Assembly: GCF_025947185.1 (NCBI RefSeq)
Contig: NZ_CP110001.1
Span: 1,674,001-1,738,000, forward strand
DNA length: 64,000 nucleotides
Origin: Flavobacterium sp. N2038
Lineage (GTDB): Bacteria; Bacteroidota; Bacteroidia; Flavobacteriales; Flavobacteriaceae
Reading direction: 5' to 3'
The position numbers and the translations under genes were made by a program. Within the stretch, counting starts at the first letter, position 1. Each line of letters opens with the position of its first letter. The notes beneath the pieces are model-generated. The model was not told the DNA's origin and did no database searches. It worked only from the letters and a program-made list of their open reading frames with translations. This document shows, one piece after another, positions 8,902-40,823 of the stretch.

Positions 8902-8923
8902 GACTTTGTTTTTAGAAATGCAA

Positions 8924-8979
8924 AAAGCATCATTTTAATTCTTACAAAAATAAGCTTTTGTAAACTAAAATGATGCTTT
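8924..8979 (-). terminator. Double-stem terminator of the LURP-one-like gene
   Basis: An outer 14-bp stem (AAAGCATCATTTTA with its complement) encloses an inner 8-bp stem (TTACAAAA/TTTTGTAA). The A-run just before it on the plus strand is a T-run for minus-strand transcripts. Confidence 0.75.
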
Positions 8980-9015
8980 CAAATGTTTTCTTAATCTAAG
9001 TTTAACAACTTTTTG

Positions 9016-9603
9016 TTATTCTTTCAGAACCATATCAATGCACATTACGGCTCCTAAAATTAATTGTCTCAATGGACTTTCCGGCGCAATAGTTTCTTCA
9101 ATTTGAAGTACATAATTATCAGCGCTTGTAAAAAGTTCTTTACCCATTCCTGCCCATTTTTTACTTACCTGAGCCAATTGTTTATTTTCGTGCGAAAATT
9201 TAAAATCCCAGCCAGTCCATTTTCCTTGTAATGTTGCAACAGGCTTTTCGTTTTTATCCAGAATTTCAAACTTTCCTCCAATAGAAAAGAATTTTTGTTT
9301 GAAAGTTCCAATTAGCCTGTCTTTTTCATCCAGAACTTCAACTGTCGATCTGAATATTGCGATTCCTCTTTTTACAGTTATTAATTTTTCTCCGGATGCG
9401 GTAGTGATTTCAACATTAAACGGAGTTGCTCTTTTATATTCTGTGAAGCGTAACATTTTGGTAAAAAATCCCAAGTTGTTTTCACGGCAATTCATAATTA
9501 TTTGATTGGTTTCCGGATTGTAAATATCATAGTTGTTTGACGCTTTAAACATTCCGACATGTTCTTTTACTAAAAATAGATTTTGGCTTAAAATTGGATT
9601 CAT
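9016..9603 (-). CDS. LURP-one / phospholipid scramblase-like protein
   Basis: 195 residues from the ATG at 9603. The sequence is a repeated beta pattern, Y-D-I-Y-N-P-E-T-N-Q-I-I, then K-F-E-I-L-D-K-N-E-K-P-V-A-T-L-Q-G-K-W-T-G-W-D-F, followed by a hydrophobic C-terminal helix. This is typical of bacterial proteins of the LURP-one/scramblase (tubby-like) superfamily, whose function in bacteria is not settled. An in-frame TTG at 9639 is part of the promoter -7 box and cannot be the start. No operon partners are evident. Confidence 0.82.
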   Translation of the reverse strand: MNPILSQNLFLVKEHVGMFKASNNYDIYNPETNQIIMNCRENNLGFFTKMLRFTEYKRATPFNVEITTASGEKLITVKRGIAIFRSTVEVLDEKDRLIGTFKQKFFSIGGKFEILDKNEKPVATLQGKWTGWDFKFSHENKQLAQVSKKWAGMGKELFTSADNYVLQIEETIAPESPLRQLILGAVMCIDMVLKE

Positions 9604-9636
9604 CCGAGTATATAAATTAGGTTTTTGAATAAAGCC

Positions 9637-9644
9637 CAAATGTA
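9637..9644 (-). promoter_or_regulatory. Promoter -7 box of the LURP-one-like gene
   Basis: On the minus strand this reads TACATTTG, an exact TAnnTTTG match, 33 nt before the ATG at 9603. It decides the start, because the upstream TTG lies inside the box. Confidence 0.65.
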
Positions 9645-9698
9645 AAAAAATATTTATTAATTTTAAGGCGCAAAAACTTTAGAATAGCAGTGATTGAG

Positions 9699-10016
9699 TT
9701 ATTTTTTAAGCGTAATAACTATAACACCATTTATACTTTTTTCTCCATAAGCCAATTTGGCTTCGTTTCCTTTTAAAACTTTCATTTCTTTAATGTCATT
9801 TGGATTGATTTTAGAAAGTTGTTTTGAATTTGTTATTTTTCCATCGATTATATATAAAGGTTCGTTTGCAGAAGATCTTGACGGGGCGCAAATTATGAAT
9901 TGCTTAGTTGTAGTTTGTTGTTGGATTGTATCTTTTGAAATTGGTTTTTCCTGTGCTATTGACACGAAACCTATATGCATAGTAAGGACTAATGAAATAA
10001 GTTTTACACTCTTCAT
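9699..10016 (-). CDS. Small secreted protein with a TonB-plug-like domain
   Basis: 105 residues. A signal peptide (M-K-S-V-K-L-I-S-L-V-L, cleavage near S-I-A-Q) is followed by a domain reading E-P-L-Y-I-I-D-G-K, then I-N-P-N-D-I-K-E-M-K-V-L-K-G, then Y-G-E-K-S-I-N-G-V-I-V-I-T-L-K. This is the core of SusC-type TonB receptor plugs (D-G, V-L-K, Y-G, G-V-I-x-I-T). There is no barrel. It is the last gene of an ECF sigma/anti-sigma unit, and the preceding anti-sigma protein ends in the same kind of domain. It could be a periplasmic signalling decoy or partner. Confidence 0.75.
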   Translation of the reverse strand: MKSVKLISLVLTMHIGFVSIAQEKPISKDTIQQQTTTKQFIICAPSRSSANEPLYIIDGKITNSKQLSKINPNDIKEMKVLKGNEAKLAYGEKSINGVIVITLKK

Positions 10017-10052
10017 ATTAATAAGTTTTAAGATTTAGTTTTGGATTTAACT

Positions 10053-10078
10053 ATATCAAAGTTTTGGAACTTTGATAT
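10053..10078. repeat. 11-bp hairpin between anti-sigma and small-protein genes
   Basis: ATATCAAAGTT, TTGG, AACTTTGATAT. It is perfect but lacks a T-run in the minus direction, so it is more likely an mRNA-processing or stability element than a terminator. Confidence 0.5.
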
Positions 10079-10089
10079 CGTTTTGCAGA

Positions 10090-11046
10090 CTATTTTTTTA
10101 GTGCCGGTTTTCCTGTTTTTGTAGTAATAATAACGACTCCTTTTTTTCCTTTTTCGCCATATTTAGAAGTGGCTTCCAAATCCTGAAGTATCGTGATCGT
10201 TTTAATTTCCTGTTCGTTTAAAGGCGCATAAGGACTTGTTGGATTTTTGCCAAATAAATCATTTTCAGAATAATAAATGCCGTCAATAATGTATAAAGGT
10301 TCATCTAAGATTACCAGAGAATCTACATTTTCCGGCTGAACATTCGATAGTTCTGCCTGCATCATTTTATCTCGCTTAACATCATCACTATGTGCCATTG
10401 CGTTTCCGTTAAGTACAACTAAAGGACTGCTTTTTTTTGCTTTTTGTGATGCTGAAGCAGCATAAGCAACTTTTGCGGACTCTCTTTCTGGATAACCTGA
10501 ATATCCCATTTGTGGAGAAACTTCTTTTTTTGAAAGTATTTTGTCGCTTTCTTCTTCAACGGGTTCATCTTTAGCTGGTTCAACCGGAGCTGCAATTTCG
10601 GCGCTAACGGGTGCATAAGATTCTGTTTGCATATTTAGTGCTGGTTCCTGAATTGCTACACTTTCTTTGTTTTTTGTATGATTGTCTAAAATTTTAACTG
10701 CTTCTTCATCAGAAACAATTCCAGATTCAGCTGAAGGGACACTGTTTTTTTGATCTAAAACCGGTTGTGTAGATTTTTCTTTTTCAGTTTCTTGAAGAAC
10801 TACTTTTTCAGTTTCTGTTGCAACCATTTTGTCTGATTTTAAGAATTGAGAGCCTAAAGAAATTATTAATAAAAGAGAAGCTGCAACGGCAATTTTTTTC
10901 CATAATGCAATGGTTTTTTTATCTTCTTTTTTATCGAGTTTTTGTTCTACGCGCGACCAGACTTGTTCCATTCCCGGAAAATCCTTTGGAGCTACATTTT
11001 CTGCCGCTTCTTTAAATTTGTCGAATATTTTATCTTGATTGTTCAT
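10090..11046 (-). CDS. Transmembrane anti-sigma factor with a C-terminal TonB-plug-like domain
   Basis: 318 residues. The N-terminal cytoplasmic segment (1-48) has M-E-Q-V-W-S-R-V-E-Q-K-L, like Bacteroidota anti-sigma proteins. One membrane segment lies at about 52-68, followed by a long low-complexity Glu/Lys/Ser/Pro-rich periplasmic linker (about 70-235). The C-terminal module reads E-P-L-Y-I-I-D-G-I-Y-Y, then L-N-E-Q-E-I-K-T-I-T-I-L-Q-D, then K-Y-G-E-K-G-K-K-G-V-V-I-I-T-T-K, a receptor-plug motif. It starts 2 nt after the sigma gene stop, so the pair is translationally coupled. It presumably holds the sigma factor at the membrane until a periplasmic signal acts. Confidence 0.85.
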   Translation of the reverse strand: MNNQDKIFDKFKEAAENVAPKDFPGMEQVWSRVEQKLDKKEDKKTIALWKKIAVAASLLLIISLGSQFLKSDKMVATETEKVVLQETEKEKSTQPVLDQKNSVPSAESGIVSDEEAVKILDNHTKNKESVAIQEPALNMQTESYAPVSAEIAAPVEPAKDEPVEEESDKILSKKEVSPQMGYSGYPERESAKVAYAASASQKAKKSSPLVVLNGNAMAHSDDVKRDKMMQAELSNVQPENVDSLVILDEPLYIIDGIYYSENDLFGKNPTSPYAPLNEQEIKTITILQDLEATSKYGEKGKKGVVIITTKTGKPALKK

Positions 11047-11048
11047 GA

Positions 11049-11585
11049 CTATTTTGCTTTTTGATAATACAATTTATTAACCAGTTCTTTTAGTTTGGTC
11101 TTGGCGGCATTTAATTGTGATTTTGATGTGCCTTCAGAAATATTAAGCATTGCTGCTATTTCTTTGTGTCCAAAACCTTCAATAACAAAAAGGTTAAAAA
11201 CCGTTTTGCATCCATCCGGAATATGGTTTAATAAATTGAGTAAATCTTCTTCTTCCAGTGCGCTCATTTCCTCTGTAAAAGGCTGCGAAAGCACTTTTAC
11301 ATCATCAAGATACATGTTGAAATTGGTGCTTTTTCTAATAGTTGCTAAACAATGATTTACAGTAATTTTTCTGGCCCAGGCCTCAAAAGCTTTTTCTTCT
11401 TTGAGCTGATCCAGTTTTGTAAATATGGTATAGAAAGCATCAGCAAGAGCTTCTTCAATCTCTTCCTCTTTCTTGAGGTATCGTTTGCAAACGCGATACA
11501 ATTTTGGAGCCATGTGCTCATAAACCTGACGCTGCGCATCGCGGTTCATTTTTTTGCAGTTAGAAATTAGCGTTTCGTTTATCAC
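11049..11585 (-). CDS. ECF RNA polymerase sigma factor
   Basis: 178 residues. Region 2 (L-I-S-N-C-K-K-M-N-R-D-A-Q-R to W-A-R-K-I-T-V-N-H) and region 4 (L-L-N-L-L-N-H-I-P-D-G-C-K-T-V-F-N-L-F-V-I-E-G-F-G-H-K-E-I-A, then S-E-G-T-S-K-S-Q) are complete. The start is GTG at 11585: region 2 begins right after it, and the internal ATG would remove the first helix. The linked anti-sigma gene sets its activity. The target promoters are not visible; self-regulation is usual in the family. Confidence 0.93.
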   Translation of the reverse strand: MINETLISNCKKMNRDAQRQVYEHMAPKLYRVCKRYLKKEEEIEEALADAFYTIFTKLDQLKEEKAFEAWARKITVNHCLATIRKSTNFNMYLDDVKVLSQPFTEEMSALEEEDLLNLLNHIPDGCKTVFNLFVIEGFGHKEIAAMLNISEGTSKSQLNAAKTKLKELVNKLYYQKAK

Positions 11586-11697
11586 AATATTGGTCTTTAA
11601 TTATAAAGAGAGCGAAAAAGATAAAAAGGTTGGGACGGGGGTAAATTTTTTTTTTAGGTTCACAGGTACAAAGGGGCAAAGTTACAAAGGTTTTATG

Positions 11698-11725
11698 GTA
11701 GAGACGCACTGCGGTGCGTCTCTAC
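11698..11725. repeat. GTAGAGACGCAC palindrome, flanked by outer CTTTG repeats
   Basis: Arms of 12 nt (GTAGAGACGCAC / GTGCGTCTCTAC) surround a TGCG loop. Outside it, GGCAAAGTTACAAAGG (11676 on) and CCTTTGTGAAACTTTGCG (11747 on) form a second, imperfect inverted pair, so the palindrome appears nested inside another repeat. Confidence 0.8.
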
Positions 11726-11807
11726 ATTATTATTGTAATCGAAAGCCTTTGTGAAACTTTGCGATAAAATTATAACATAACGCTACGCAAGGTCAAAGTA
11801 ATGTATC

Positions 11808-12644
11808 TTATTTAACTGGCAAAGTCAATTTAAAAATCTTCGTTTCTAGAATCTCCGTGTCATTGTCCTCGCAAAGTAAAAATTCAATATTGTTGTTTTC
11901 TTTTTTATAGAAAGTCAAGCCTTCGAATTTATTGGTTGAGGTAATTTTTTGCGTAAAATCTATTTTCATCGTTTTAAGGTCGATTCTTCCTATGAAACTT
12001 CCCAGGATTTCGCCGTCATCATAAGTTGATTTGGTGTTTTCGGTTGTAGAAAGAAAATAAATTTTATCTTCAACTAAAATCGCGTCCGTAAAACTGGAAC
12101 GAATACCTTTTATTTTTGGAAGTTTATAATTGGTTGCAACCAATGCAAATTCTTCTCCTAAACTTTTGGCATGGATAGTAAAAATGGTGTTTTTATTTGA
12201 AATCCCATTTCCGCGATTGAATAAATACCAGTTTTCGCCATCGAAAATAGCGCCTTCCAGATTGAAATCTTCCGGTTTTATTTCGCCAAAACTTTGCATT
12301 AAACCATACAAATCGACCAAATTGTTTTTTTGTAAAATGTTTTTATTCTTCAAATCAAATTCGATCATTTTATTTCGATTTTCGGTCGAACCGGAACCAA
12401 AAACATAAAGCGTGTCATTATGATGCGTAATAGATTCAAAATCGGGTTTTAATTTTTTTGGAATGTTTTGCGTCGGATTATCAATTAAAGCGTGTTGATT
12501 TAATTGCTTGTTCTGAATATTGTATTCGTACAGAAATCCGCTGTTGTCGCCAATAATGTAAAGTGCGTTATTATTATAAAATAATCCTGATGCCGAACCG
12601 ATTCCGATGATTTGAAATAATATTTCTAAGGTGAATTTTTCCAT
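11808..12644 (-). CDS. Beta-propeller-like protein (DUF6929-type)
   Basis: 278 residues with no clear signal peptide. Repeated units of the form A-L-Y-I-I-G-D-N-S-G-F-L-Y-E-Y, then D-T-L-Y-V-F-G-S-G-S-T-E-N-R, then D-G-E-N-W-Y-L-F-N-R-G and D-K-I-Y-F-L-S-T-T-E look like blades of a propeller. The E-S-I-T, L-E-G-A and F-E-G-L motifs recur, as in DUF6929/SdiA-regulated-like proteins of Bacteroidota. The function is unknown. It starts 24 nt after the stop of the gene upstream at 12669-13322, so they are probably one transcript. Confidence 0.7.
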   Translation of the reverse strand: MEKFTLEILFQIIGIGSASGLFYNNNALYIIGDNSGFLYEYNIQNKQLNQHALIDNPTQNIPKKLKPDFESITHHNDTLYVFGSGSTENRNKMIEFDLKNKNILQKNNLVDLYGLMQSFGEIKPEDFNLEGAIFDGENWYLFNRGNGISNKNTIFTIHAKSLGEEFALVATNYKLPKIKGIRSSFTDAILVEDKIYFLSTTENTKSTYDDGEILGSFIGRIDLKTMKIDFTQKITSTNKFEGLTFYKKENNNIEFLLCEDNDTEILETKIFKLTLPVK

Positions 12645-12668
12645 GAATGTTTTATTTTGTACTCTTTG

Positions 12669-13322
12669 TTATCTTGACTTTATCTTTTTAAATGTATTAT
12701 TTTTTTCTGCTTCTGAGACTGTTTTTTCGAGAATATCCATAATTAGGTTGCTTTTTAATCTATTATTATGCTTATAATTAATGTTTACAATTCCGTCATC
12801 ATTTTGTTCCTTCATCTGAAAAGAGTTGAATTCTTTTTTAATCATTGAGCCTTTAATAATCATTTTGAAATTTTGAACCGGAGAATGATCAATTAATAAA
12901 GCACATTTTACTTCTTTAAAATTTTTATATGGAAAATATTCAAATTGCTTAAATTTTTCCTTTTTTATGATGTTTTGATTAGAAAAGTAAATCTCCCAAA
13001 AATCATCTTGTAGAATATTAACTTCTGAATATTCCGAACAGGTACTAATTTTTGTTAGATAAGTTTTTTTGTTTCTTTTCCAAAAAATATAAATGGATTG
13101 ATTTCTTTGATTATCATCACAAATTTCATTGCTATTGGAGTCAAAAAGCATTCTACAACCAACACAATAACTTTCATAAATGCAAATTGTATCTATTTTT
13201 TGGCTTTGAAGTTTTTTAATGTAGTTTGAAACTAAACTGTCAATTTTAATTTCGGAATTACTTTGTGCATTTCCTATAAATGTTACACAAAAGAGAAATG
13301 AAAATATAATTCTTTTCGTCAT
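12669..13322 (-). CDS. Secreted protein of unknown function
   Basis: 217 residues with a signal peptide (F-S-F-L-F-C-V-T-F-I-G-N-A-Q). The mature part is lysine- and asparagine-rich. It contains clustered cysteines (T-I-C-I-Y-E-S-Y-C-V-G-C, E-I-C, S-T-C, K-C), suggesting disulphides or metal binding. I do not recognise the family. It is upstream of and probably co-transcribed with the propeller-like gene. Confidence 0.65.
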   Translation of the reverse strand: MTKRIIFSFLFCVTFIGNAQSNSEIKIDSLVSNYIKKLQSQKIDTICIYESYCVGCRMLFDSNSNEICDDNQRNQSIYIFWKRNKKTYLTKISTCSEYSEVNILQDDFWEIYFSNQNIIKKEKFKQFEYFPYKNFKEVKCALLIDHSPVQNFKMIIKGSMIKKEFNSFQMKEQNDDGIVNINYKHNNRLKSNLIMDILEKTVSEAEKNNTFKKIKSR

Positions 13323-13548
13323 TATTGATTTTGAAATATTGAATAAGTTCTTTTAAAAATGATACCCTAGCCCTGATAGCAATGAAAATACTTTATAAAG
13401 AAATTGCGTTTTTTCCTGACAGAACAAGGCACCACCAGAAGCTCTTGGTGTGTTTTAGAAAAATACAATTTATTGAAAAAGTATTGCAATGAATAGCGGG
13501 AATATGCTTCGTAAAATTACTACATTTATAATTCAAAATTTGAAAAAT

Positions 13549-14430
13549 ATGAAATCAATAGACCCGAAAGATTTTAAAGTAGTAGATAAAATTAAGTTAA
13601 GTAAGATTCCAACTTTACTCAATATCGATGCCGACGACGATGAAAAAGAAGAAAAACTGGATAAGGTTCAGGCAAAATTGAGTGATTTGCAGGATGTGAT
13701 GTATGCACACAATAAATATGGAGTTTTAATTTGTCTTCAGGGAATGGATACTTCGGGAAAAGACAGTTTGATTAGGGAAGTTTTTAAAGAATTTAATCCG
13801 CGTGGGGTTGTGGTGCACAGTTTTAAAACACCAAATTCAACTGAGCTGGAACATGATTATTTATGGAGACATTATATTGCGTTGCCGGAAAAAGGAAAGT
13901 TTGCAATTTTTAACAGAACACATTATGAAAACGTTTTGGTGACGCGTGTTCATCCTGAATATATTTTGGCAGAGAATTTACCGGATATAAAATCGATAGA
14001 TGATATTACATCAGAGTTTTGGGAAAACAGAATTAAACAAATTAATAATTTCGAAAAACATATTGCTCAAAACGGGACAATTGTAATGAAGTTTTTTCTG
14101 CATTTGAGTAAAGAAGAACAACGCCAGCGTTTATTACGCCGTTTAGAAGAAGAAAAACATCACTGGAAATTTTCTCCGGGTGATTTAAAAGAACGTGAAC
14201 ATTGGGATGAATATCAAAAATATTATGAAGAAGCGATAAACGAAACTTCAAAAGAACATGCGCCCTGGTATGTCGTTCCTGCCGATGATAAAGAAATGGC
14301 CCGTTATATTGTAGCCAAAATTATCTGGGAAGAAATGCAAAAGCATACCGATATAAAGGAACCGGAACTTGATGATAAAATAAAAGCCAATTTTGAGGTC
14401 TATAAACAGCAATTAAAAAAGGAGTCTTAA
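13549..14430 (+). CDS. ppk2: Polyphosphate kinase 2 family protein
   Basis: 293 residues from the ATG at 13549. Walker A is G65-M-D-T-S-G-K71-D. Walker B/lid elements follow (F-N-R-T-H-Y-E-N-V, then R-R-L-E-E-E-K-H-H-W-K-F-S). The family moves phosphate between polyphosphate and nucleoside mono- or diphosphates in the cytoplasm. The single-domain form with G-M-D-x-S-G-K-D fits class I-III PPK2; which nucleotide it prefers cannot be told. An upstream in-frame ATG at 13489 would add 20 residues outside the family's usual start. Its terminator overlaps the stop codon. Confidence 0.92.
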   Translation: MKSIDPKDFKVVDKIKLSKIPTLLNIDADDDEKEEKLDKVQAKLSDLQDVMYAHNKYGVLICLQGMDTSGKDSLIREVFKEFNPRGVVVHSFKTPNSTELEHDYLWRHYIALPEKGKFAIFNRTHYENVLVTRVHPEYILAENLPDIKSIDDITSEFWENRIKQINNFEKHIAQNGTIVMKFFLHLSKEEQRQRLLRRLEEEKHHWKFSPGDLKEREHWDEYQKYYEEAINETSKEHAPWYVVPADDKEMARYIVAKIIWEEMQKHTDIKEPELDDKIKANFEVYKQQLKKES

Positions 14431-14448
14431 AGTAAGACTCTTTTTTTT
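14422..14448 (+). terminator. Intrinsic terminator of ppk2
   Basis: The stem GAGTCTTA / TAAGACTC with a 3-nt loop is followed by eight T. The left arm includes the stop codon. Confidence 0.88.
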
Positions 14449-14625
14449 GCTCCAATGTTAATGTAAGTTTATGAGTATTTTGTATTACTAATTTATTGTT
14501 AATTTTTTTGTGCTTAATGAAGTAATTGTGCTAAAAGTCTTGTTTTTTTGATAATATCCAAGTCATTTTAAGTTAAAGTGATAGCGTTTACTTTGTCAAA
14601 AAAATAAAAACCAATATTTAGCTAC

Positions 14626-16077
14626 ATGAAACGAGTTATTTTACCTTTAATTATGCTGGGTTCGTTAATTACATCTTGTAATAACGACTCAAAAGACGAC
14701 GCTGTAACCACGAGCGTTGTGTTAAAAGATCAATCTGTTACCCCAAGTTTACTAAAAGCGAAACCAGGTTTCGAAAATTTGAAAATTTATTCTCTTTTTA
14801 GTTCAGATGACGTTTTTATTGAAACTCCAAAGTTTGTTTTTGGAGGATCTGCAGATGGTTCAGGTTTGTTAAAAAATGCTGATGGTACGTTTACTTTTTT
14901 GGTTAACAATGAAGATAACTTTGCTGTTTCGAGAATTACATTTGACAAAACATTTAAGCCTACAAAAGGAGAATATTTGTTAAACTCAAGCGGAGGAACC
15001 TGGAGATTATGCGGTGCTACAATGGCAACACAAGCAGAACATGGTTTTGGACCGGTTTATTTAACATGTGGAGAATCTGGTGAAGAATCTCGTACGCATG
15101 CTTTAGATCCTTATGCAAGCGCTGGCGGAGCATCTGTATCTAAAGAATTATCTGGATTTGGACGTTTAAGTGCTGAGAACGCATTGCCATTACGTTCTAC
15201 TGCTTACAAAGGAAAAACAGTAGTAGTAATTGGTGATGATGATTCAGGAACTTATGGAGGTCAGGTTTTTATGTATGTATCTAATACTATAGGTGATTTA
15301 ACCGGAGGTTCTTTATACATGCTAAAAAGAAATGATGACAACCAAAGAGAAAAAGATATGGAAGTAAGTAAAACTTATCCGGTATCTTTTGTAAAAATTG
15401 ATAACCATACTACACTTACAGGAGCTCAGATTAATGCTGCGGTAAATACGCTGAAAGCAATTAAGTTTGGTCGTGTTGAGGATTTGGATTACCGTAAAGG
15501 AGGAAACGCTGCAGATCGTGAATTGTATTTTAACGTAACTGGACAAAATACTACAGGTACAAATGCAGATGGTTCAAGAACTAAATATGGTAGAGTTTAC
15601 AGATTAAATCTTGATGCTGCTGACCCATTAAAAGGAACTTTAGAAGTTGTTCTTGACGGTGATAACCGTAGCGGAATTGCAGGTAAATTCCAGAATCCGG
15701 ATAACATTTGTGTAACTAAAAATTACGTTTATGTTGAGGAAGATGCTAACGGTTACGGAGACGAAACTCATGATGCTTATATTTATCAATATAATATCGC
15801 TACAAAAGATTTGAAAGTTGTAGTAGAACTAGATCACCGTCGTACAGCAGCTGACGCGGCAAAATATAACGTAGGTGGTATGTCTAAATTTGGTGACTGG
15901 GAGTATGGTGCTTTAATAGATGTATCTGATCAATTAGGTATTGATGATACTTTTATGCTAAGTGTTCAGCCACATAGCTGGACTGGCGACAAGTATTTAA
16001 GTCCGGACGGAGGTACAAATCGTCCTAAAGAAAATCAGGCAAGTCAAATTTTAGTTCTAAAAGGTTTACCAAGATAA
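14626..16077 (+). CDS. PhoX-like (DUF839) phosphatase family lipoprotein
   Basis: 483 residues. A lipoprotein signal ends at L-I-T-S-C18. The propeller-like body has G-R-V-E-D-L-D-Y, G-R-V-Y-R-L-N-L-D, F-Q-N-P-D-N-I-C-V and V-E-E-D-A-N-G. These correspond to the metal-binding acidic segments of PhoX/DUF839 proteins, Ca2+/Fe3+-dependent alkaline phosphatases at the cell surface. Codon use is regular and the protein is glycine-rich, suggesting strong expression. It precedes a cytochrome c peroxidase lipoprotein on the same strand, with a hairpin between them. Enzyme activity is inferred, not certain. Confidence 0.78.
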   Translation: MKRVILPLIMLGSLITSCNNDSKDDAVTTSVVLKDQSVTPSLLKAKPGFENLKIYSLFSSDDVFIETPKFVFGGSADGSGLLKNADGTFTFLVNNEDNFAVSRITFDKTFKPTKGEYLLNSSGGTWRLCGATMATQAEHGFGPVYLTCGESGEESRTHALDPYASAGGASVSKELSGFGRLSAENALPLRSTAYKGKTVVVIGDDDSGTYGGQVFMYVSNTIGDLTGGSLYMLKRNDDNQREKDMEVSKTYPVSFVKIDNHTTLTGAQINAAVNTLKAIKFGRVEDLDYRKGGNAADRELYFNVTGQNTTGTNADGSRTKYGRVYRLNLDAADPLKGTLEVVLDGDNRSGIAGKFQNPDNICVTKNYVYVEEDANGYGDETHDAYIYQYNIATKDLKVVVELDHRRTAADAAKYNVGGMSKFGDWEYGALIDVSDQLGIDDTFMLSVQPHSWTGDKYLSPDGGTNRPKENQASQILVLKGLPR

Positions 16078-16093
16078 AATTTTAAGTCCTTAT

Positions 16094-16140
16094 AAAACAG
16101 TTATCCACTATTTCAATTTGAGGTAGTGGTTTCTGTTTTT
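16094..16140 (+). terminator. Hairpin after the PhoX-like gene
   Basis: AACAG...CCACTA pairs with TAGTGG...CTGTT and is followed by five T. It is probably a partial terminator between the PhoX-like and peroxidase genes. Confidence 0.6.
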
Positions 16141-16172
16141 CTAAACATTCCTCTTTTAATCGTTATTACATC

Positions 16173-17954
16173 ATGAAAAAAATATACTGTTTGTTGTTTT
16201 TGATAGTTTTTGTTGCCTGTCAGAAAAAAAGCAAACATCAGGAAGTAAATGAATTGTTTCAGGCAGATATTACTTCATTAATTGAAAAAGTTGCCAAATT
16301 AAAATATTCGGTGCAGGAAGATTCAACCGAATCCCAAATTCAGAAACAATTTTTGGAAGCACATAAAAATTACAAAAAGGTCGAAATGATCAGTGAATAT
16401 TATTCGCCTTCAGTTTCTAAATCTATTAACGGACCCGCAATACCGGAGTTTGAAGAAAATGATAAAGTAACTGTTGCGCCGGAAGGATTTCAGGTTATTG
16501 AAGAACTGGTTTTTCCGAAGTATGACAAAAAAAATAAAAAAGAATTAATTCAGGAACTGGGAGTTTTATCGGCAAATTTAATTCGATTAGAAAAAGTTTC
16601 AAACACAAATGAATTAACCGATGCTCATGTTTTTGACGCCATGAGACTGGAAGTTTACAGAATTATTACTTTAGGAATCACCGGTTTTGATTCGCCGGTT
16701 GTACTCAACTCTCTTCCCGAAGCATTGACATCTTTAGAAAGTATCGAAAAATATTATCATGTTTATCTTAAAGATCAATCTGTATCTAATGCTAAGCAAG
16801 TAGTTCAGCTTTTAGAAAATGGGAAAAAGTACTTAAAATCGAATACCAATTTTAATGCTTTTGATCGCGCTTATTTTATTAAAGAAATTTTAAATCCGTT
16901 AAGTAAAGGACTTTTTAAAACACAATCAGAATTAGGAATTCCTTTAATGAAAGAGCAAAGAGGCTTAAAAGTTACAGCACAAACTTTATTTGACCAGGAT
17001 GCTTTTGATCCTGAAGCTTTCTCCGGTTTTCCGGATTACAAAACAACACCAGAAAAAATTGCTCTGGGTAAAAAGTTATTCAATGATCCTGTTTTATCAG
17101 GAAACAATACGCGTTCGTGCGCTTCGTGCCATCATGAAGACAAGGCTTTTACAGATGGTCTGGAGAGAGCAGTTGCACTAGACGGAAAATCAATGATTCA
17201 GCGGAATACACCAACGCTTACTAATATTGCTTTTCAACGTGTGTTTTTTGCAGATTCAAGAGTGAGTTATCTAGAAGATCAGGCGGTTGCAGTTATTAAA
17301 AACGAAAACGAAATGCATGGATCTCTGGAGAAATCAGCTTTGGCAATTCAGAAAAATGCAGCATATGTAAAAGAATTTCAGAAAGCTTTTCCAAAAGGAG
17401 AAATAAACGAATTTGCAATCAAAAATGCTTTGGCATCTTATATACGTTCGTTAAGTCAATACGATTCTAAATTTGACCGCTTTATGCAAAATAAAACCAC
17501 ATTTACTGTCGATGAAAAAGCAGGGTTTAATTTATTTGCCGGAAAAGGAAAATGTGCCACCTGCCATTTTATTCCGCTTACCAATGGAACAGTTCCGCCA
17601 AATTTTGACAGATCAGAAAGCGAAATTCTGGGTGTTCCGGATAAAAATAAAAAACTGGATGGAGATCTGGGGAAATTTGTGATTACACAAGCAGCCATTC
17701 ATAAACATTCGTTTAAAACGCCAACAATTAGGAACATTGAACTTACAGCTCCATATATGCATAATGGCGTTTATAAAACTTTAGAAGAAGTTATCGATTT
17801 CTATAATGAAGGTGGAGGTTTAGGCAAAGGATTTGATGTTCCGAACCAAACTTTACCGGAAGACAAATTGAATTTATCAGATCTCGAGAAAAAACAGCTT
17901 ATTGCTTTTATGAAAACTTTGACGGATAAGAAGTATTCGGAGAAAAGAGAATAG
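16173..17954 (+). CDS. Di-heme cytochrome c peroxidase with N-terminal imelysin-like domain (lipoprotein)
   Basis: 593 residues. The lipoprotein signal ends at V-A-C16. Residues about 25-240 form a helical region with G-F-Q-V-I-E-E-L-V-F-P, which resembles the G-x-H-x-I-E motif of imelysin/EfeO-type iron-binding domains. From about 285 it is a MauG/CcpA-type peroxidase with two haem c sites, C316-A-S-C319-H320 and C461-A-T-C464-H465, and the usual P-T-L-T-N-I-A and P-T-I-R-N-I motifs. It would act in the periplasm at a membrane. The fusion, and its place next to a PhoX-like gene, suggest metal-linked redox handling. Typical single-domain peroxidases are some 200 residues shorter. Confidence 0.88.
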   Translation: MKKIYCLLFLIVFVACQKKSKHQEVNELFQADITSLIEKVAKLKYSVQEDSTESQIQKQFLEAHKNYKKVEMISEYYSPSVSKSINGPAIPEFEENDKVTVAPEGFQVIEELVFPKYDKKNKKELIQELGVLSANLIRLEKVSNTNELTDAHVFDAMRLEVYRIITLGITGFDSPVVLNSLPEALTSLESIEKYYHVYLKDQSVSNAKQVVQLLENGKKYLKSNTNFNAFDRAYFIKEILNPLSKGLFKTQSELGIPLMKEQRGLKVTAQTLFDQDAFDPEAFSGFPDYKTTPEKIALGKKLFNDPVLSGNNTRSCASCHHEDKAFTDGLERAVALDGKSMIQRNTPTLTNIAFQRVFFADSRVSYLEDQAVAVIKNENEMHGSLEKSALAIQKNAAYVKEFQKAFPKGEINEFAIKNALASYIRSLSQYDSKFDRFMQNKTTFTVDEKAGFNLFAGKGKCATCHFIPLTNGTVPPNFDRSESEILGVPDKNKKLDGDLGKFVITQAAIHKHSFKTPTIRNIELTAPYMHNGVYKTLEEVIDFYNEGGGLGKGFDVPNQTLPEDKLNLSDLEKKQLIAFMKTLTDKKYSEKRE

Positions 17955-36332: not shown

Positions 36333-37025
36333 TTAAATAATGGTTTTGAATATTTTATCCCAAATGGTGAAGTAAAAACCAAAATTCTGAGATTCGTTTT
36401 TATGATGGTCATTATGGAATTTAGTAGTCGAAATCCATTTTGTAAAATAGTTTTTGTACCAAAAAGCAGGAAATACATCGGTCTTTAAATGACCAAATAT
36501 TCCGTATGATAAATTTAAAATAAGATAGATGATAATACTTAAAAAATTAAACTCTAAAATGGTAATTAAAAATAACCATATAAAACCAAAGCCTAAGGTT
36601 TCTACAGGATGTAATACATACAGACTATAAACATTGGTTTCGATGTGTGTATGATGAAGTTTATGAATGGGGTACATCCATTTTAAATGATGAACCAAAT
36701 AATGAAAAATGAACATTAGAAGATCCATTAAGAGTATCAATATCAGGGTGTCAAGAAACATAGCATACCATGATCCTGAGAAATCTACTTTCATTATTCC
36801 GTAACGATACAATTCAAAGCCGGTAATAGTGATGAATGTATTGCATAATAGGGTAGAAAGAACCCATTTTTGATCTGTTTTCTTTAATACGGTATTTTCA
36901 GGCTCAATTATTTTTCCAATTAAAACAGAAATATAGATCAAAATTAAGTTTTCGATCAAAAAGAAAATAGCGAGTAAAGGCAGATTAAACTGGGATAATT
37001 GCTGTAACCAATTTTCAAAAATCAT
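36333..37025 (-). CDS. Sterol desaturase/fatty acid hydroxylase family protein
   Basis: 230 residues with four membrane segments. The di-iron histidine clusters are all visible: F-H-Y-L-V-H-H, H-K-L-H-H-T-H and F-H-N-D-H-H. The family hydroxylates or desaturates lipids such as fatty acids, carotenoids or sterols at the inner membrane. It overlaps the sirtuin stop by 4 nt (37022-37025), so the two are translationally coupled, with the sirtuin first. The lipid substrate is not predictable. Confidence 0.9.
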   Translation of the reverse strand: MIFENWLQQLSQFNLPLLAIFFLIENLILIYISVLIGKIIEPENTVLKKTDQKWVLSTLLCNTFITITGFELYRYGIMKVDFSGSWYAMFLDTLILILLMDLLMFIFHYLVHHLKWMYPIHKLHHTHIETNVYSLYVLHPVETLGFGFIWLFLITILEFNFLSIIIYLILNLSYGIFGHLKTDVFPAFWYKNYFTKWISTTKFHNDHHKNESQNFGFYFTIWDKIFKTII

Positions 37026-37723
37026 AGCGCATTTTCTAAAACCAGGAGACGTTCTCTTAAATCGGCAACACCTTCTGAAGCAAATTTTGCGATTGTTTCT
37101 ACTTTATTACTAATATTTGGTATTGCAATTGGTTTTGGGTCAATATAAAAAACAGGTGTAATACTATAAGTATACGAAATTAATCCTGCGGCTGGATAAA
37201 CTTGCAATGAAGTACCAATTACAGCAAAGTAATCTGCTTCTTCAACAATAGAAATGGCCTCTTCGAGCGCAGGAACGTCTTCACCAAACCAAACAATATG
37301 TGGTCGCAATTGATGTCCGTTTTCATCCAGATCACCGGTAAATAAATCATCTGTCCAGTCTAAAATCAGGTCGCGATTTTTGGTGCTTCTTACTTTTAAT
37401 AATTCTCCATGTAAATGCAAAACATTTGAACTTCCGGCTCTTTCGTGCAAATCGTCAACATTTTGAGTTATAATATACACGTCGAAATCTTTTTCTAATT
37501 CAGCCAGAATAAGATGTCCTAAATTGGGTTTAACCTCTTTTAGTTGTTGGCGTCTTTTATTGTAAAAATCAAGAACCAATTCCTGATTTTTATGCCAGCC
37601 TTCGGGAGTTGCTACTTCCATAACATCATGTCCTTCCCATAAACCATCACTGTCACGAAAAGTTTTTATTCCGCTTTCAGCACTTATTCCGGCTCCGGTC
37701 AAAACAACAAGCTTCTTTTTCAT
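37022..37723 (-). CDS. Sir2 family NAD-dependent deacylase lacking zinc cysteines
   Basis: 233 residues. The motifs are T-G-A-G-I-S-A-E-S-G (9-18), F-R-D-S-D-G-L-W, T-Q-N-V-D-D-L-H, and the catalytic H105 in L-H-L-H-G-E. Y54 and R57 match the Y-x-x-R pair of SIRT5/CobB-type desuccinylases. The region that normally carries the four-cysteine zinc ribbon (about 111-140) keeps its length and the R-P-H-I-V-W-F-G-E end, but has no cysteine; the whole protein has none. It may fold without zinc. It is the first gene of a two-gene unit with the hydroxylase. Confidence 0.92.
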   Translation of the reverse strand: MKKKLVVLTGAGISAESGIKTFRDSDGLWEGHDVMEVATPEGWHKNQELVLDFYNKRRQQLKEVKPNLGHLILAELEKDFDVYIITQNVDDLHERAGSSNVLHLHGELLKVRSTKNRDLILDWTDDLFTGDLDENGHQLRPHIVWFGEDVPALEEAISIVEEADYFAVIGTSLQVYPAAGLISYTYSITPVFYIDPKPIAIPNISNKVETIAKFASEGVADLRERLLVLENAL

Positions 37724-37882: not shown

Positions 37883-38413
37883 ATGATTTTAATACAGTTT
37901 ACAGGATTATCAGGTTCGGGAAAAACTACATTGGCAGAGCATGTTAGTGAGATGTTAGTGGAAAATGGTTATCAGGTAAAAATTGTCGACGGCGATGTTT
38001 ATCGACAAACTGTTTGTAAAGATTTAGGTTTCTCAAAAGATGACCGTTGTGAAAATGTAAGACGTCTTTTTAATATAAGTCAGGATTTTGTTCAGTCTAA
38101 AATTATCGTTTTAATGTCGGTTATAAACCCATACGAAGAGGTAAGAAAGGAAATTGGTCAGTATAAATTTGTTCGGACTGTATTTGTTGATTGTTCAATC
38201 GATAATCTGATAAAAAGAGATCCAAAAGGATTGTATAAGAAAGCCTTATTACCAGATGATGACATTAATAAAATTAAAAATTTTACCGGAATAAGTGCTG
38301 TTTATGAAACTCCTTCGAAAGTTGATTTAGTATTAAAAACAGACTTTGAAGAGGTATCGGTTTCAACACAAAAGTTGTATCATTTTATCGTTACCAATTT
38401 ATCCGATTTATAA
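37883..38413 (+). CDS. cysC: Adenylyl-sulfate (APS) kinase
   Basis: 176 residues. The P-loop is G8-L-S-G-S-G-K14-T. V-D-G-D-V-Y-R-Q-T-V-C-K-D-L-G-F-S-K-D-D-R matches the APS-binding motif of CysC. The segment R-D-P-K-G-L-Y-K-K-A, then I-K-N-F-T-G-I-S-A-V-Y-E-T-P is the family's lid and C-terminal signature. It phosphorylates APS to PAPS, the donor for sulfotransferases. No ATP sulfurylase (cysDN) or PAPS reductase genes lie beside it. The adjacent sulfotransferase gene indicates that PAPS is made for sulfation rather than for cysteine synthesis. Confidence 0.93.
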   Translation: MILIQFTGLSGSGKTTLAEHVSEMLVENGYQVKIVDGDVYRQTVCKDLGFSKDDRCENVRRLFNISQDFVQSKIIVLMSVINPYEEVRKEIGQYKFVRTVFVDCSIDNLIKRDPKGLYKKALLPDDDINKIKNFTGISAVYETPSKVDLVLKTDFEEVSVSTQKLYHFIVTNLSDL

Positions 38414-38434
38414 ATAAAGCTAACCTTTAAACAT

Positions 38435-39118
38435 ATGAATCCTTCTTCCTGCCAGCTTCCGATTTCATTTTCAATAGAAAAGTTGCAAAAAGATCTTGCA
38501 ATCTGCGAGACTAATTTATGGACACCTCATTTTAATACGTATCGATACGAAGGGGACTGGACAAGTGTTTCCTTAAGATCGCAATCAGGAGAAGTTAATG
38601 ATATTTTGTCTTTTCCAAATGCAACCTATAAGAATACTAATTTATTGGAGAGCTGTACCTATTTTAAAGAAATCATGGACTGGTTTCAATGTGAAAAAGA
38701 GGCAGTGCGTCTATTAAAACTGGGCCCTGAAAGTAAAATCAAGGAACATGTTGATAACGACACTTCTTATGAAGATGGATTTTTCAGAATTCATGTACCA
38801 ATAATTACAAATGATGAAGTATTTTTTTATGTCGATAAAAAGTTGGTTCCTATGAAAATGGGAGAATGTTGGTACGCTAATTTCCAGCTTCTGCATAGTG
38901 TTGAAAATAAGAGCCGGGAAGCTCGCATTCATCTTACTTTAGATTGTATACGCAATGAGTGGTCAGATGAATTGTTTTCGAAAATGGGTTTTAATATCAA
39001 TTCTTCTTCAAAACCAAATCTGTTTTCTGATGAAGTGAAACAGCAAATTATTGCAGAACTTTCCAGAAATCCTTCAGAAATTAATGCTAAACTAATTGCA
39101 GATCTGCAGTCAAATTGA
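38435..39118 (+). CDS. Aspartyl/asparaginyl beta-hydroxylase-type 2-oxoglutarate oxygenase
   Basis: 227 residues. The core (about 90-175) follows PF05118. Proposed iron ligands are H105 (K-E-H-V-D-N-D) and H154 (L-L-H-S-V-E-N). Proposed 2-oxoglutarate contacts are R118 and H120 (F-R-I-H-V-P-I) and R164 (A-R-I-H-L-T-L-D), the same order as in human AspH. The family hydroxylates aspartyl or asparaginyl residues, free proline, or lipid-linked amino acids. It starts 21 nt after cysC and lies 11 nt before the sulfotransferase ATG. A hydroxyl group that the next enzyme sulfates is a reasonable inference. Confidence 0.85.
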   Translation: MNPSSCQLPISFSIEKLQKDLAICETNLWTPHFNTYRYEGDWTSVSLRSQSGEVNDILSFPNATYKNTNLLESCTYFKEIMDWFQCEKEAVRLLKLGPESKIKEHVDNDTSYEDGFFRIHVPIITNDEVFFYVDKKLVPMKMGECWYANFQLLHSVENKSREARIHLTLDCIRNEWSDELFSKMGFNINSSSKPNLFSDEVKQQIIAELSRNPSEINAKLIADLQSN

Positions 39119-39129
39119 AATTAATAAAT

Positions 39130-40098
39130 ATGGAAAATATAGCGCATTCACTTTTAAACTGGATTCCAATTAAATTAATTGAAAAGGATAATGAAATTTA
39201 TTTTGAATGGATTTATCTGGGAGATTTAAATTATAATGAGCCTTTTTTTGACGAAACGATTGCTAAATGCAGAAAGCTGCCTTACAATTCTAATTGGTTT
39301 AAAACAGTAAGCACTTTAGAAAATCTTATTGATTGGTCTAAAGAATTGGTTGCTGTCGAAGTAAAATCATTGGTTTTTCATGTGTCCAGATGCGGGTCTA
39401 CCATGTTGAGTCAGTCTCTGGCGACTTCAGCTGAAAATATTGTGATTTCTGAAGCTCCCATTATCGATCAGATTCTAAGAAGTTATTCTTTTGATTTAGA
39501 AAAAAAGACCATTTTGTTAAAATCGGTAATTGCTTTGTTAGGACAAAAAAGATTCCCGGAACAAAAGAATTTAATTGTAAAACTCGATGCCTGGCATATA
39601 TTTAATGCCCCTTATTTACGATCAGTTTTTCCTGAAACTCCTTTTGCTTTGCTTTATAGAAATCCGGCAGAAGTTTTAAGGTCACACCAAAAAATGACAG
39701 GAATGCATATGGTGCCTAATTTATTAGAGCCTGGTATTTTTGGCATAACTTCAAAAGAAATTAGTGAAATAAGTTTTCATCAATATGGAGCATTGGTGTT
39801 GGAGAAATACTATCAGGGATTCTTAGATTTTAATGCTTTAGATAAAAATGTGATAATACTCAACTATAATGAGGGAATGAGAGATGTGGTGGAAAGATTT
39901 ATATCTTTTATCAATGTTGAGTATTCAAATAATGAACTCAATCAAATTTATGATCGTTTAAAAAAGCATTCAAAAAATGAAGCGAATATTTTTAACGGAG
40001 ATTCCTATAAAGATGATGTTTTATTGGCAGATCTTAGTAAAGCTTTTTTATTGCACGAGAAATTGAACAATTGTTTTGTTGAAGATTTAGCCCGTTGA
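39130..40098 (+). CDS. PAPS-dependent sulfotransferase family protein
   Basis: 322 residues from the ATG at 39130; a TTG at 39115 overlapping the previous stop is the alternative start. The 5'-phosphosulfate loop is F83-H-V-S-R-C-G-S-T-M-L-S-Q and the 3'-phosphate segment is L-L-Y-R-N-P-A-E-V-L-R-S-H. This is the cytosolic-type sulfotransferase fold, with no signal or membrane segment. It probably uses PAPS from the linked APS kinase. The acceptor is unknown; the linked oxygenase suggests a hydroxylated amino acid, peptide or lipid head group. Confidence 0.85.
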   Translation: MENIAHSLLNWIPIKLIEKDNEIYFEWIYLGDLNYNEPFFDETIAKCRKLPYNSNWFKTVSTLENLIDWSKELVAVEVKSLVFHVSRCGSTMLSQSLATSAENIVISEAPIIDQILRSYSFDLEKKTILLKSVIALLGQKRFPEQKNLIVKLDAWHIFNAPYLRSVFPETPFALLYRNPAEVLRSHQKMTGMHMVPNLLEPGIFGITSKEISEISFHQYGALVLEKYYQGFLDFNALDKNVIILNYNEGMRDVVERFISFINVEYSNNELNQIYDRLKKHSKNEANIFNGDSYKDDVLLADLSKAFLLHEKLNNCFVEDLAR

Positions 40099-40160: not shown

Positions 40161-40823
40161 ATGATTGATTTAGATTACCTCGCTTTTCTTGAAAATATAT
40201 TAACTGATAATCGAAAGGAAAGATTTTATACTGTTTTGGCAAACCGTACCAAACATTTTACAGTTGCAGTAGAAGATGTTTTTCAGATGCATAATACAAG
40301 TGCCGTAATGCGCAGCTGTGAGGTTTTTGGAATTCAGGAACTGAATGTAATCGAGCAACGTTACGGAAAACGTATTGATAAAGAAATTGCCATGGGAGCT
40401 CAAAAGTGGGTTGACATCCATCAATATGATTCGATTACCAATTGTGTTTCTACTTTAAAGAATCAAGGCTACCAAATCATTGCTACAACACCACACGAAA
40501 ATGATTGCCTGCTGGAGGATTTTGATATTACTAAACCAAGCGCTTTATTTTTCGGGACTGAACGTGATGGACTCTCTCAGGAAATATTAGAAAAAGCCGA
40601 TGGTTTTCTTAAAATACCAATGGTTGGTTTTACAGAGAGTTTAAATATTTCTGTTTCGGCTGCGATCATCATTCAAAATCTTACGAACAGATTACGTAAT
40701 TCTGATATCAATTGGCAATTGTCTGAGGAAGAAATTTTAGAAAAACGTTTAGCCTGGGCCAGAAATTCTATAAAAGATATCAAACGAATAGAAGCTCGCT
40801 ACTATCAGGAAAATCCAAGATAA
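40161..40823 (+). CDS. trmH: tRNA 2'-O-ribose methyltransferase, TrmH/SpoU family
   Basis: 220 residues. The SPOUT motifs are N-T-S-A-V-M-R-S-C-E-V-F-G (motif 1 with catalytic R), A-L-F-F-G-T-E-R-D-G-L (motif 2) and G-F-T-E-S-L-N-I-S-V-S-A-A-I (motif 3, knot). The length and the C-terminal helical extension fit tRNA Gm18 methyltransferase. It has its own promoter and is followed by an octamer-ladder hairpin. Confidence 0.92.
   Translation: MIDLDYLAFLENILTDNRKERFYTVLANRTKHFTVAVEDVFQMHNTSAVMRSCEVFGIQELNVIEQRYGKRIDKEIAMGAQKWVDIHQYDSITNCVSTLKNQGYQIIATTPHENDCLLEDFDITKPSALFFGTERDGLSQEILEKADGFLKIPMVGFTESLNISVSAAIIIQNLTNRLRNSDINWQLSEEEILEKRLAWARNSIKDIKRIEARYYQENPR

Follow-up and report, generated by a model that had tools for sequence, protein, structure and literature searches.

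A three-gene operon in Flavobacterium sp. N2038 encodes an adenylyl-sulfate (APS) kinase (CysC), a hydroxylase of family PF05118 (HydA) and a protein of sulfotransferase fold (ST), and travels with proteins that carry a Collar domain (PF07484) and mostly end in asparagine. We read the operon as a self-supplied unit in which the hydroxylase (Hyd) would hydroxylate the C-terminal asparagine of Collar proteins and ST would sulfate it, a reading to which we assign a probability a little under one half (about 0.47).

The operon lies within the window, the 64,000-nucleotide stretch of DNA that was analysed (Table 1). The initial annotation described three same-strand genes with gaps of 21 nt (cysC-HydA) and 11 nt (HydA-ST), bounded by a divergent sirtuin gene and by trmH, and the open reading frame coordinates and profile matches agree with this. 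Starting ST at the ATG at 39130 yields the 322 residue protein, while an alternative TTG at 39115 would overlap the HydA gene. Neighboring genes within the flanks comprise sir2, FA_hydroxylase and trmH.

Table 1. Genes of the cassette and its flanks, with positions in the window.
Gene	Position	Strand	Description
SIR2-family gene	37022..37723	-	PF02146; divergent; upstream boundary, flank outside the cassette
cysC	37883..38413	+	176 aa; APS kinase, predicted PAPS maker; TIGR00455 and PF01583
HydA	38435..39118	+	227 aa; PF05118, cytosolic Fe(II)/2-oxoglutarate hydroxylase, Asp/Asn beta-hydroxylase family
ST	39130..40098	+	322 aa; predicted PAPS-dependent sulfotransferase, divergent, extra N-terminal beta hairpin
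trmH/SpoU-type RNA methyltransferase gene	40161..40823	+	PF00588; downstream boundary, flank outside the cassette

All key motifs named at the outset are present in the three proteins. CysC reaches 163.8 bits with the adenylyl-sulfate kinase profile TIGR00455, whose curated cut-off is 138.7 bits, and contains the P-loop GLSGSGKTT including K14. HydA matches PF05118 with 58.5 bits (cut-off 22.6), and its residues H105, R118, H120, H154 and R164 are invariant in all 17 hydroxylases aligned. The same holds for D107, overlooked in the initial annotation, with which H105-x-D107...H154 forms the full 2-His-1-carboxylate set. ST falls below the Pfam cut-off (PF13469, 22.7 vs 27 bits), has no NCBIfam match and finds only weak, unrelated chains among PDB sequences; relatives at two other loci (L094 and L243) pass the sulfotransferase Pfam profile with 29.7 and 29.3 bits. 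The AlphaFold2 model of ST (mean pLDDT 81.4, pTM 0.84) indicates a sulfotransferase fold: all 50 Foldseek matches listed, of 52 with E <= 0.001, are sulfotransferases, with tyrosylprotein sulfotransferases (TPSTs) ranking first, at TM-scores of only about 0.43. Among 11 ST sequences S86, C88-T91, E108, R177 and S185 are invariant and R87, the first residue of the predicted R87-C-G-S-T PAPS loop, is nearly so. Sulfotransferase criteria quoted in PMC6637879 are an arginine in the 5'-loop, a serine in the 3'-motif and a Glu/His base between them, and by analogy these roles may be filled by R87, S185 and E108.

The cassette is conserved as a unit in several families of Bacteroidota. All three genes are present at 54/54 close Flavobacterium loci, two of which encode CysC and Hyd as a single open reading frame, and at 15 of 26 loci from more distant Bacteroidota (among them Chitinophaga, Pedobacter and Emticicia), so that the neighborhood goes beyond chance. 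The check for co-occurrence across Bacteroidota proposed with the initial annotation thus came out in favor of linkage. The SIR2 and trmH/SpoU flanks are each kept at 53 of the 54 close loci. Among 249 Flavobacterium genomes, 33 contain ST (35 before two weak partial matches, G265 and G393, were dropped); cysC is adjacent in every one and HydA lies between cysC and ST in 27. The six genomes with a Hyd-less cassette all encode a 45%-identical hydroxylase elsewhere in the genome or adjoining the cassette. F. johnsoniae strain CI04 (L237) also carries the cassette. Given the conserved linkage in the genus genomes and at the close loci, we rejected the idea of chance neighbors. A BLAST search of plasmids with the cassette DNA returned no match.

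The genomic setting of cysC points to a PAPS supply dedicated to ST. It could be argued that cysC serves cysteine synthesis next to an unrelated HydA and ST, as many bacteria use cysC in sulfate assimilation and CysDN is encoded elsewhere in this genome, and the initial annotation had named such a plain assimilatory role as fatal to its proposal. The cysD/cysH pair, however, lies 1.6 Mb from the cassette in its own sulfate-assimilation operon, while HydA and ST are linked to cysC. The cassette gene is the sole APS-kinase match in the genome and no second cysC was found there. Most of the 249 Flavobacterium genomes lack cysC, and in 33 of the 45 that have a match it adjoins ST. In addition, the CysH of the assimilation operon (locus L035) contains two cysteine pairs, a feature typical of iron-sulfur reductases whose substrate is APS itself. 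Together with the three-gene linkage across genera and the CysC-Hyd fusions, these observations make ordinary neighbors highly improbable, and we rejected a plain cysteine-synthesis role for this single cysC beside ST. An APS kinase linked to a sulfotransferase, as in dedicated PAPS supply of the Nod, Rax and Sxt kind, was found in 33/33 ST genomes, and in this genome it lies apart from the assimilation operon. The original proposal, in which the cassette would supply its own sulfate donor, hydroxylate and sulfate, is supported by the conserved linkage, the separate assimilation operon and the hydroxylases that accompany Hyd-less cassettes. Hydroxylation followed by sulfation on one substrate is probable.

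Sulfate appears to be one of two interchangeable caps. Each of 51/51 Flavobacterium genomes with a cap gene, 33 with ST and 18 with a close NodU/CmcH-type carbamoyltransferase (CarbT), encodes one intact Hyd of form A or B, and ST and close CarbT occur together in 0/249. The CarbT count excludes six of 24 genomes with partial or distant-only matches (G311, G360, G361, G395, G405 and G467), of which G360 and G405 are ST genomes. With one hydroxylase in every cap genome and never both caps, the unit looks like a hydroxylase with an exchangeable O-cap, sulfate or carbamate. F. beibuense (L266) is one of the species that pair HydB with CarbT. A close cap gene is missing from four HydB genomes, and two Aequorivita loci lack any near Hyd. 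Mutual exclusion holds for close orthologues in the 249 genus genomes and is not universal, since two Chitinophaga loci (L253 and L260) contain both carbamoyltransferase and ST. A HExxH protein, fused to HydB in one genome, is found in 27/28 HydB genomes, 18/27 HydA genomes and five Hyd-less genomes; its absence from this genome and from nine of the 27 HydA genomes excludes it as an obligatory partner.

Collar proteins are the best candidates for the target. A Collar domain is found in 52 of 55 Hyd genomes compared with 49 of 194 others (Fisher 1.4e-21); the Hyd count omits one weak match (G354) from 56 and keeps the fragmentary G395, and two of the three Hyd genomes without a Collar match are incomplete assemblies. 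Two small Collar-domain proteins are encoded in this genome, away from the cassette at a distance of 2.3 Mb. Elsewhere the genes are physically linked: five loci (L234, which also carries cysC-HydA-ST, L240, L245, L255 and L264) encode 10 Collars that all end in RN, and six further loci (L041, L057, L069, L091, L092 and L094) encode 12, of which 11 do. Collar loci also hold formyltransferase and Peripla_BP_6 genes. The AlphaFold model of one Collar protein has a pLDDT of 37, too low to inform on the position of its tail.

The C-terminus of these proteins varies with the hydroxylase. In Collar tails taken from 89 loci in 82 genomes, after removal of two loci whose ends are not Collar-like (L122 and L138) and leaving out two Hyd-positive (G297 and G400) and 17 Hyd-negative Collar genomes, a Collar ending in RN is present in 50/50 Hyd genomes and in 11/31 without Hyd. 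For BP6-type Collars, the C-terminal asparagine (...FPSRN) ranks first of 179 columns for association with Hyd (75/79 vs 7/17), while the nearby arginine and proline show no change; in a wider set of 140 Collars, a phenylalanine six columns before the asparagine scores slightly better (2.5e-11 vs 1e-10). Across 11 phylogenetically independent pairs, about six point in the same direction and none in the opposite one (median p 0.03). All eight distant Hyd genomes examined contain a Collar ending in [FY]PSRN, a test made after the tail rule had been noted. Most Collars per genome in Chitinophaga lack the RN end, which 2/11 of the tails read carry when C. filiformis and C. oryziterrae are pooled. 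This co-occurrence of the cassette with mostly Asn-ending Collars suggests an undescribed protein modification and points to a protein of the Collar family as substrate, rather than a lipid or free amino acid. The TPST-like nearest folds of the ST model would fit a protein substrate. We consider a Collar substrate slightly better than an even bet, and the terminal asparagine as target residue falls just short of one.

The relatives of the hydroxylase argue in another direction. The nearest solved structures to HydA are those of L-proline cis-4-hydroxylase (4p7w), of a proline oxidase/hydroxylase (1e5r) and of a beta-hydroxylase (7v4f). The nearest characterised relative acts on free L-proline, which would favor a small substrate. 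Models of nonproteinogenic amino acid hydroxylases and of LpxO also match HydA weakly, and PF05118 includes the lipid hydroxylases LpxO and OlsC. HydA shares family and iron and 2-oxoglutarate residues with AspH, LpxO, OlsC and L-proline cis-4-hydroxylase; we know of none that works with a sulfotransferase and an APS kinase. Hydroxylation and sulfation might instead occur on a small molecule, namely a lipid or an amino acid, either free or within a peptide, with the Collar unmodified and part of the same surface or secretion programme, and the formyltransferase and Peripla_BP_6 products could handle such molecules. We regard this as somewhat less probable than Collar modification. The last Collar residue tracks Hyd above 178 other columns of the BP6 set next to constant arginine and proline, GNAT-type Collars of the same genomes end in RN in 0/18 cases, and no recurrent acyl-, lipid- or NRPS-type gene was seen among labelled families in the neighborhoods examined. 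The two enzymes might instead act at different tail residues, for example Hyd on proline or asparagine and ST on the serine of FPSRN, with sulfation independent of the new hydroxyl. Proline, serine and asparagine are all present in the tail, the proline at -4 is near-constant across all Collar types and Hyd resembles proline hydroxylases. The serine varies, however, with FPTRN, FPARN and FPQRN found in Hyd genomes, the final asparagine is what tracks Hyd, and ST never occurs without a hydroxylase (33/33 genomes), which makes separate target residues improbable.

In the favored reading of Collar modification, the CysDN sulfurylase, encoded away from the cassette, would provide APS, and CysC would phosphorylate it to PAPS. 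HydA, a predicted cytosolic 2-oxoglutarate oxygenase, would hydroxylate the asparagine that ends (...FPSRN-COOH) small Collar-domain proteins, which resemble phage short tail fibres, and ST would transfer the PAPS sulfate to the new hydroxyl, yielding O-sulfated beta-hydroxyasparagine at the Collar C-terminus. In related species, a NodU/CmcH-type carbamoyltransferase would replace CysC and ST and place a carbamate on the same hydroxyl. We infer these reactions and their order, as well as which protein and which residue are modified, from the gene families, folds, linkage, CysC-Hyd fusion, interchange of hydroxylase and cap, and Collar and C-terminal Asn co-occurrence observed directly.

Parts of this scheme have precedents. 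Rhizobial NodPQ-NodH combines a dedicated PAPS supply with a sulfotransferase in Nod factors, with the carbamoyltransferase NodU in other strains as the alternative, similar to the cassette; unlike it, Nod enzymes modify a lipo-chitooligosaccharide whose hydroxyls are already present and involve no hydroxylase step. HypF, which contains a Kae1-like domain, carbamoylates the C-terminal cysteine of HypE, a precedent for carbamoyl capping of a protein's last residue, albeit on a thiol rather than a hydroxyl and in proteins unrelated to Collar. The Chitinophaga carbamoyltransferase shows no more than a HypF_C_2 match below cut-off. Saxitoxin hydroxylases belong to families other than PF05118. The cyanobacterial saxitoxin tailoring genes sxtI, sxtN and sxtO serve one product with a carbamoyltransferase of NodU type, a sulfotransferase and an APS kinase (PMC2679770). 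That product is a small molecule carrying carbamoyl and sulfate together, whereas the Flavobacterium caps are mutually exclusive. RaxST of Xanthomonas has, according to PMC6637879, a TPST-like fold and sulfates a tyrosine of the ribosomal peptide RaxX, fed by PAPS-making genes, which a reference title in that paper names as RaxP/RaxQ. The cassette resembles RaxX-RaxST, as presented there, in bacterial TPST-like fold and PAPS-making gene supply. RaxST uses a pre-existing tyrosine hydroxyl and housekeeping PAPS genes located elsewhere, in contrast to the operon hydroxylase and adjacent cysC found here. No raxX-like precursor or raxA/raxB-like maturation-export genes were seen beside ST within the flanks. 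A literature search, mostly of titles and abstract openings, found no described case of the three-enzyme combination or of Collar modification.

Operons with dedicated PAPS supply and a sulfotransferase usually signal a molecule for the cell's outside world, as in Nod factors, RaxX and saxitoxins, and to these the cassette adds its own hydroxylase, a distribution over several Bacteroidota families and a carbamoyl counterpart. Bacterial tail-collar proteins are annotated as 'tail fiber protein' or 'microcystin-dependent protein'. A wider proposal, which we hold tentatively and below even odds, is that the terminal asparagine of Bacteroidota Collars is beta-hydroxylated and then capped with sulfate (CysC and ST) or carbamate (NodU-type), exchangeably between species; that the HydB-linked HExxH protein, or a PqqD/Transglut_core3 pair in another genome, might cleave the modified tail; and that the Collar may act as scaffold for a small peptide secreted in sulfated or carbamoylated form. 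If the terminal asparagine is modified in this way, the last Collar residue would gain 15.995 Da, followed by 79.957 Da for sulfate or 43.006 Da for carbamoyl. Should the Collar tail be the target, the modification would be a new one for a protein C-terminus and would give a first indication of the function of bacterial tail-collar proteins.

The three genes of the cassette encode an APS kinase, a hydroxylase and a protein with a sulfotransferase fold. The host genome consists of one 4.67 Mb contig and lies near F. branchiicola, with 87% identity for the sulfotransferase (ST) and 89% for the hydroxylase (HydA). The initial annotation had described three ORFs on a common strand with gaps of 21 and 11 nt, which re-reading of the window reproduced. 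A curated model identifies the first gene product as APS kinase (CysC), and a profile match assigns the second to PF05118. The iron site of the latter, H105-x-D107...H154, is invariant across 17 aligned relatives; H105 and H154 had been recognized from the outset while D107 had been overlooked. As the third gene scores under the Pfam cut-off, its identity had to be sought in structure: sulfotransferases make up all 50 matches listed for the predicted fold, and among these human and tick tyrosylprotein sulfotransferases come first, with modest TM-scores of about 0.43. Arg-87, Glu-108 and Ser-185 of ST occupy the positions expected of three essential sulfotransferase residues, following criteria in PMC6637879.

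Coordinates of the cassette genes and of features at related loci
Sequence	Coordinates	Strand	Feature
Window	36333-37025		Fatty acid hydroxylase-type gene (PF04116) directly past the sirtuin gene; retained in many relatives
Window	37883-38413	+	cysC
Window	38435-39118	+	HydA gene
Window	39130-40098	+	ST gene
L041 (G424)	8210-10245		HydA remnants between cysC and ST; snapshot of hydroxylase replacement
L093 (G690)	9666-10745		PF05118 hydroxylase-HExxH fusion, one 359-residue ORF
L094 (G588)	8433-15178		Hydroxylase and ST beside NTP_transf_5, PqqD, Transglut_core3, three Collar genes and a formyltransferase
L100 (host genome)	10323-17156		2277-residue ORF after Collar and Peripla_BP_6 genes
L240	11986-12660		Further oxygenase-type gene, distant cluster
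L245	8699-9373		Further oxygenase-type gene, distant cluster
L248	11541-12467		Further oxygenase-type gene, distant cluster
L257	11619-12575		Further oxygenase-type gene, distant cluster
L300 (Azospirillum oryzae plasmid NZ_CP054615.1)	189817-200353		Three Collar genes; neighbours by annotation: lasso peptide B2 protein, asparagine synthetase B, 2OG-Fe(II) oxygenases, cupin, TIGR02466 protein

Other families of the phylum also contain loci related to the cassette. Within its own family, ST seems mostly restricted to Flavobacterium in a sample of 249 genomes, since the family scan found, besides the host, one genome with a distant ST match (29%, G027), whose adjoining genes include none labelled as cysC or hydroxylase. 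After removal of two weak matches, ST is present in 33 of 249 Flavobacterium genomes, with cysC adjacent in all 33 (69-78% identity, or the window's own) and HydA between the two in 27 (77-83% identical, or the window's own). A second scan of named genomes, in which the best 80 of 324 hydroxylase relatives were retained, has genomes in common with the first set (among them L210, which corresponds to G338), and the two linkage counts are therefore not independent. Among these best 80, all 54 close loci contain ST and 52 a separate cysC, with kinase and hydroxylase forming a single 409-residue ORF in the remaining two (F. hungaricum and F. foetidum). ST adjoins the hydroxylase at 20 of the 26 more distant loci, 15 of which, in Chitinophaga, Pedobacter, Emticicia and Pseudarcicella, also have cysC within 4 kb; Solitalea and three MAGs, among others, carry ST without cysC nearby. 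Some distant clusters contain additional oxygenase-type genes, namely a PhyH gene at L257 with similar ORFs at L248, L254 and L264, and a 2OG-FeII_Oxy_3 gene at L245 with a similar ORF at L240; these clusters may thus carry out more than a single hydroxylation.

Hydroxylases and cap genes interchange within Flavobacterium. HydB, a second hydroxylase sharing 41-47% identity with HydA, is encoded in 28 of the 249 genomes, none of which also has an intact HydA. All five genomes with cysC-ST but no hydroxylase between them encode HydB elsewhere, and in a sixth (G424) HydB lies immediately upstream of cysC and HydA is reduced to remnants. At 12 of the 27 HydB loci viewed, the next gene is a NodU/CmcH-type carbamoyltransferase (PF02543 and PF16861). 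A close orthologue (67% or more) is present in 18 of 249 genomes, each of which has HydB and lacks ST; this count leaves out distant, partial matches in the ST genomes G360 and G405. Exactly one intact hydroxylase is present in each of the 51 genomes with a cap gene, be it ST or the close carbamoyltransferase; four HydB genomes have neither. A gene pattern in which a cap needs a hydroxylase and the two caps can replace each other is to be expected if the newly made hydroxyl is capped. Mutual exclusion of caps fails beyond Flavobacterium at Chitinophaga L253 and L260, where a 31-34% carbamoyltransferase accompanies hydroxylase, ST and cysC.

The cassette kinase is not a kinase of sulfate assimilation. 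The host genome contains one APS-kinase match, and a profile search of it located two adjacent PF01507 genes 1.6 Mb from the cassette. Surrounding ORFs, named by eye, are presumably genes for sulfite/nitrite reductase and siroheme synthesis and a 414-aa cysN that lacks a kinase domain. Two pairs of cysteines, ECC... and CAPC..., are present in the CysH encoded there, a mark of iron-sulfur reductases using APS directly; some reductases of this type accept PAPS as well. Most of the 249 Flavobacterium genomes lack a cysC match, and 33 of the 45 that have one carry it next to ST.

The candidate substrate is Collar (PF07484), a protein whose sequence relatives include the T4 short tail fibre gp12. 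Collar genes adjoin the hydroxylase both within and beyond Flavobacterium (L041, L057, L069, L091, L092, L094, L240, L245, L255 and L264), and in F. limicola (L234) one lies downstream of cysC-HydA-ST, at a distance of less than 1 kb. Across the 249 genomes, Collar is present in 52 of 55 with a hydroxylase versus 49 of 194 others (Fisher 1.4e-21, uncorrected for kinship); the three hydroxylase genomes that lack it are G395 (76% complete), G453 (70%) and G401 (93%). The host has two Collar genes 2.3 Mb from the cassette, each with a VFPSRN end and beside a Peripla_BP_6 protein. In several other records, too, Collar genes have very large ORFs with Ig-like or similar annotations as neighbours; a surface role for the modified Collar is therefore plausible, although this is only a guess. 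Judged by its genes, the Azospirillum plasmid locus is possibly another tail-modifying set, in Proteobacteria.

The Collar C-terminus varies with the hydroxylase. Tails were read at 89 loci of 82 genomes, with two loci removed. At least one Collar ends in RN in 50 of 50 hydroxylase genomes versus 11 of 31 without. For the subtype beside a Peripla_BP_6 gene, the RN end is found in 75 of 79 Collars from hydroxylase genomes and in 7 of 17 from the others, the preceding Arg and the Pro at -4 being constant in both groups, and the last residue ranks top of 179 alignment columns for hydroxylase association (P 1.3e-6; next 5.7e-4). Among a wider set of 140 Collars, Phe four residues before Asn scores slightly higher (2.5e-11 versus 1e-10), so the signal there is the tail FxxRN and not Asn alone. 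GNAT-type Collars from six of the same genomes, an internal control, have the RN end in 0 of 18. In a tree from which the tail was excluded, with several rows per genome and a bootstrap not fully settled, 11 independent pairs differ in hydroxylase; the RN change is concordant in about six, opposite in none and absent in about five (median p 0.03, range 0.008-0.06). The RN-tail rule was written down before testing eight distant hydroxylase genomes (two Pedobacter, three Chitinophaga, Emticicia, Pseudarcicella and Aequorivita). All eight contain Collar and at least one [FY]PSRN end; RN ends 13 of the 24 tails read, with misses mostly in two Collar-rich Chitinophaga. The background in plasmid records of other bacteria, whose hosts may or may not have a hydroxylase, is 3 of 26 Collars with the RN end, from 10 of 71 Collar records.

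The most likely working order suggested by these sequence patterns is that CysC would phosphorylate APS supplied by CysDN, HydA would hydroxylate the terminal Asn of Collar, which fits the family name Asp/Asn beta-hydroxylase, and ST would place sulfate on the new hydroxyl. The tail Ser is disfavoured as the sulfation site because it varies in hydroxylase genomes (FPTRN, FPARN and FPQRN occur). A small molecule could be the substrate in place of Collar, the best argument being that the nearest solved hydroxylase relative acts on free proline; modification of the Collar Asn is the reading we favour.

HydB loci also hold an HExxH protein of 165-175 residues with no Pfam match. The G690 fusion would link hydroxylation to this putative metallopeptidase of no Pfam family, and the gene content of L094 resembles a lasso-peptide-like set of parts adjoining the Collar system. 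Nod factors have a dedicated PAPS-sulfotransferase system. Others are described for Rax (PMC6637879) and saxitoxin (PMC2679770), and RiPP clusters are reported to contain sulfotransferases and PF05118 enzymes, each singly (PMC13417212). In a literature search whose reach stopped short of subscription journals and preprints, neither the cassette combination nor a modified Collar protein was described. The Collar step is one that we infer; if confirmed, it would represent a new kind of C-terminal modification.
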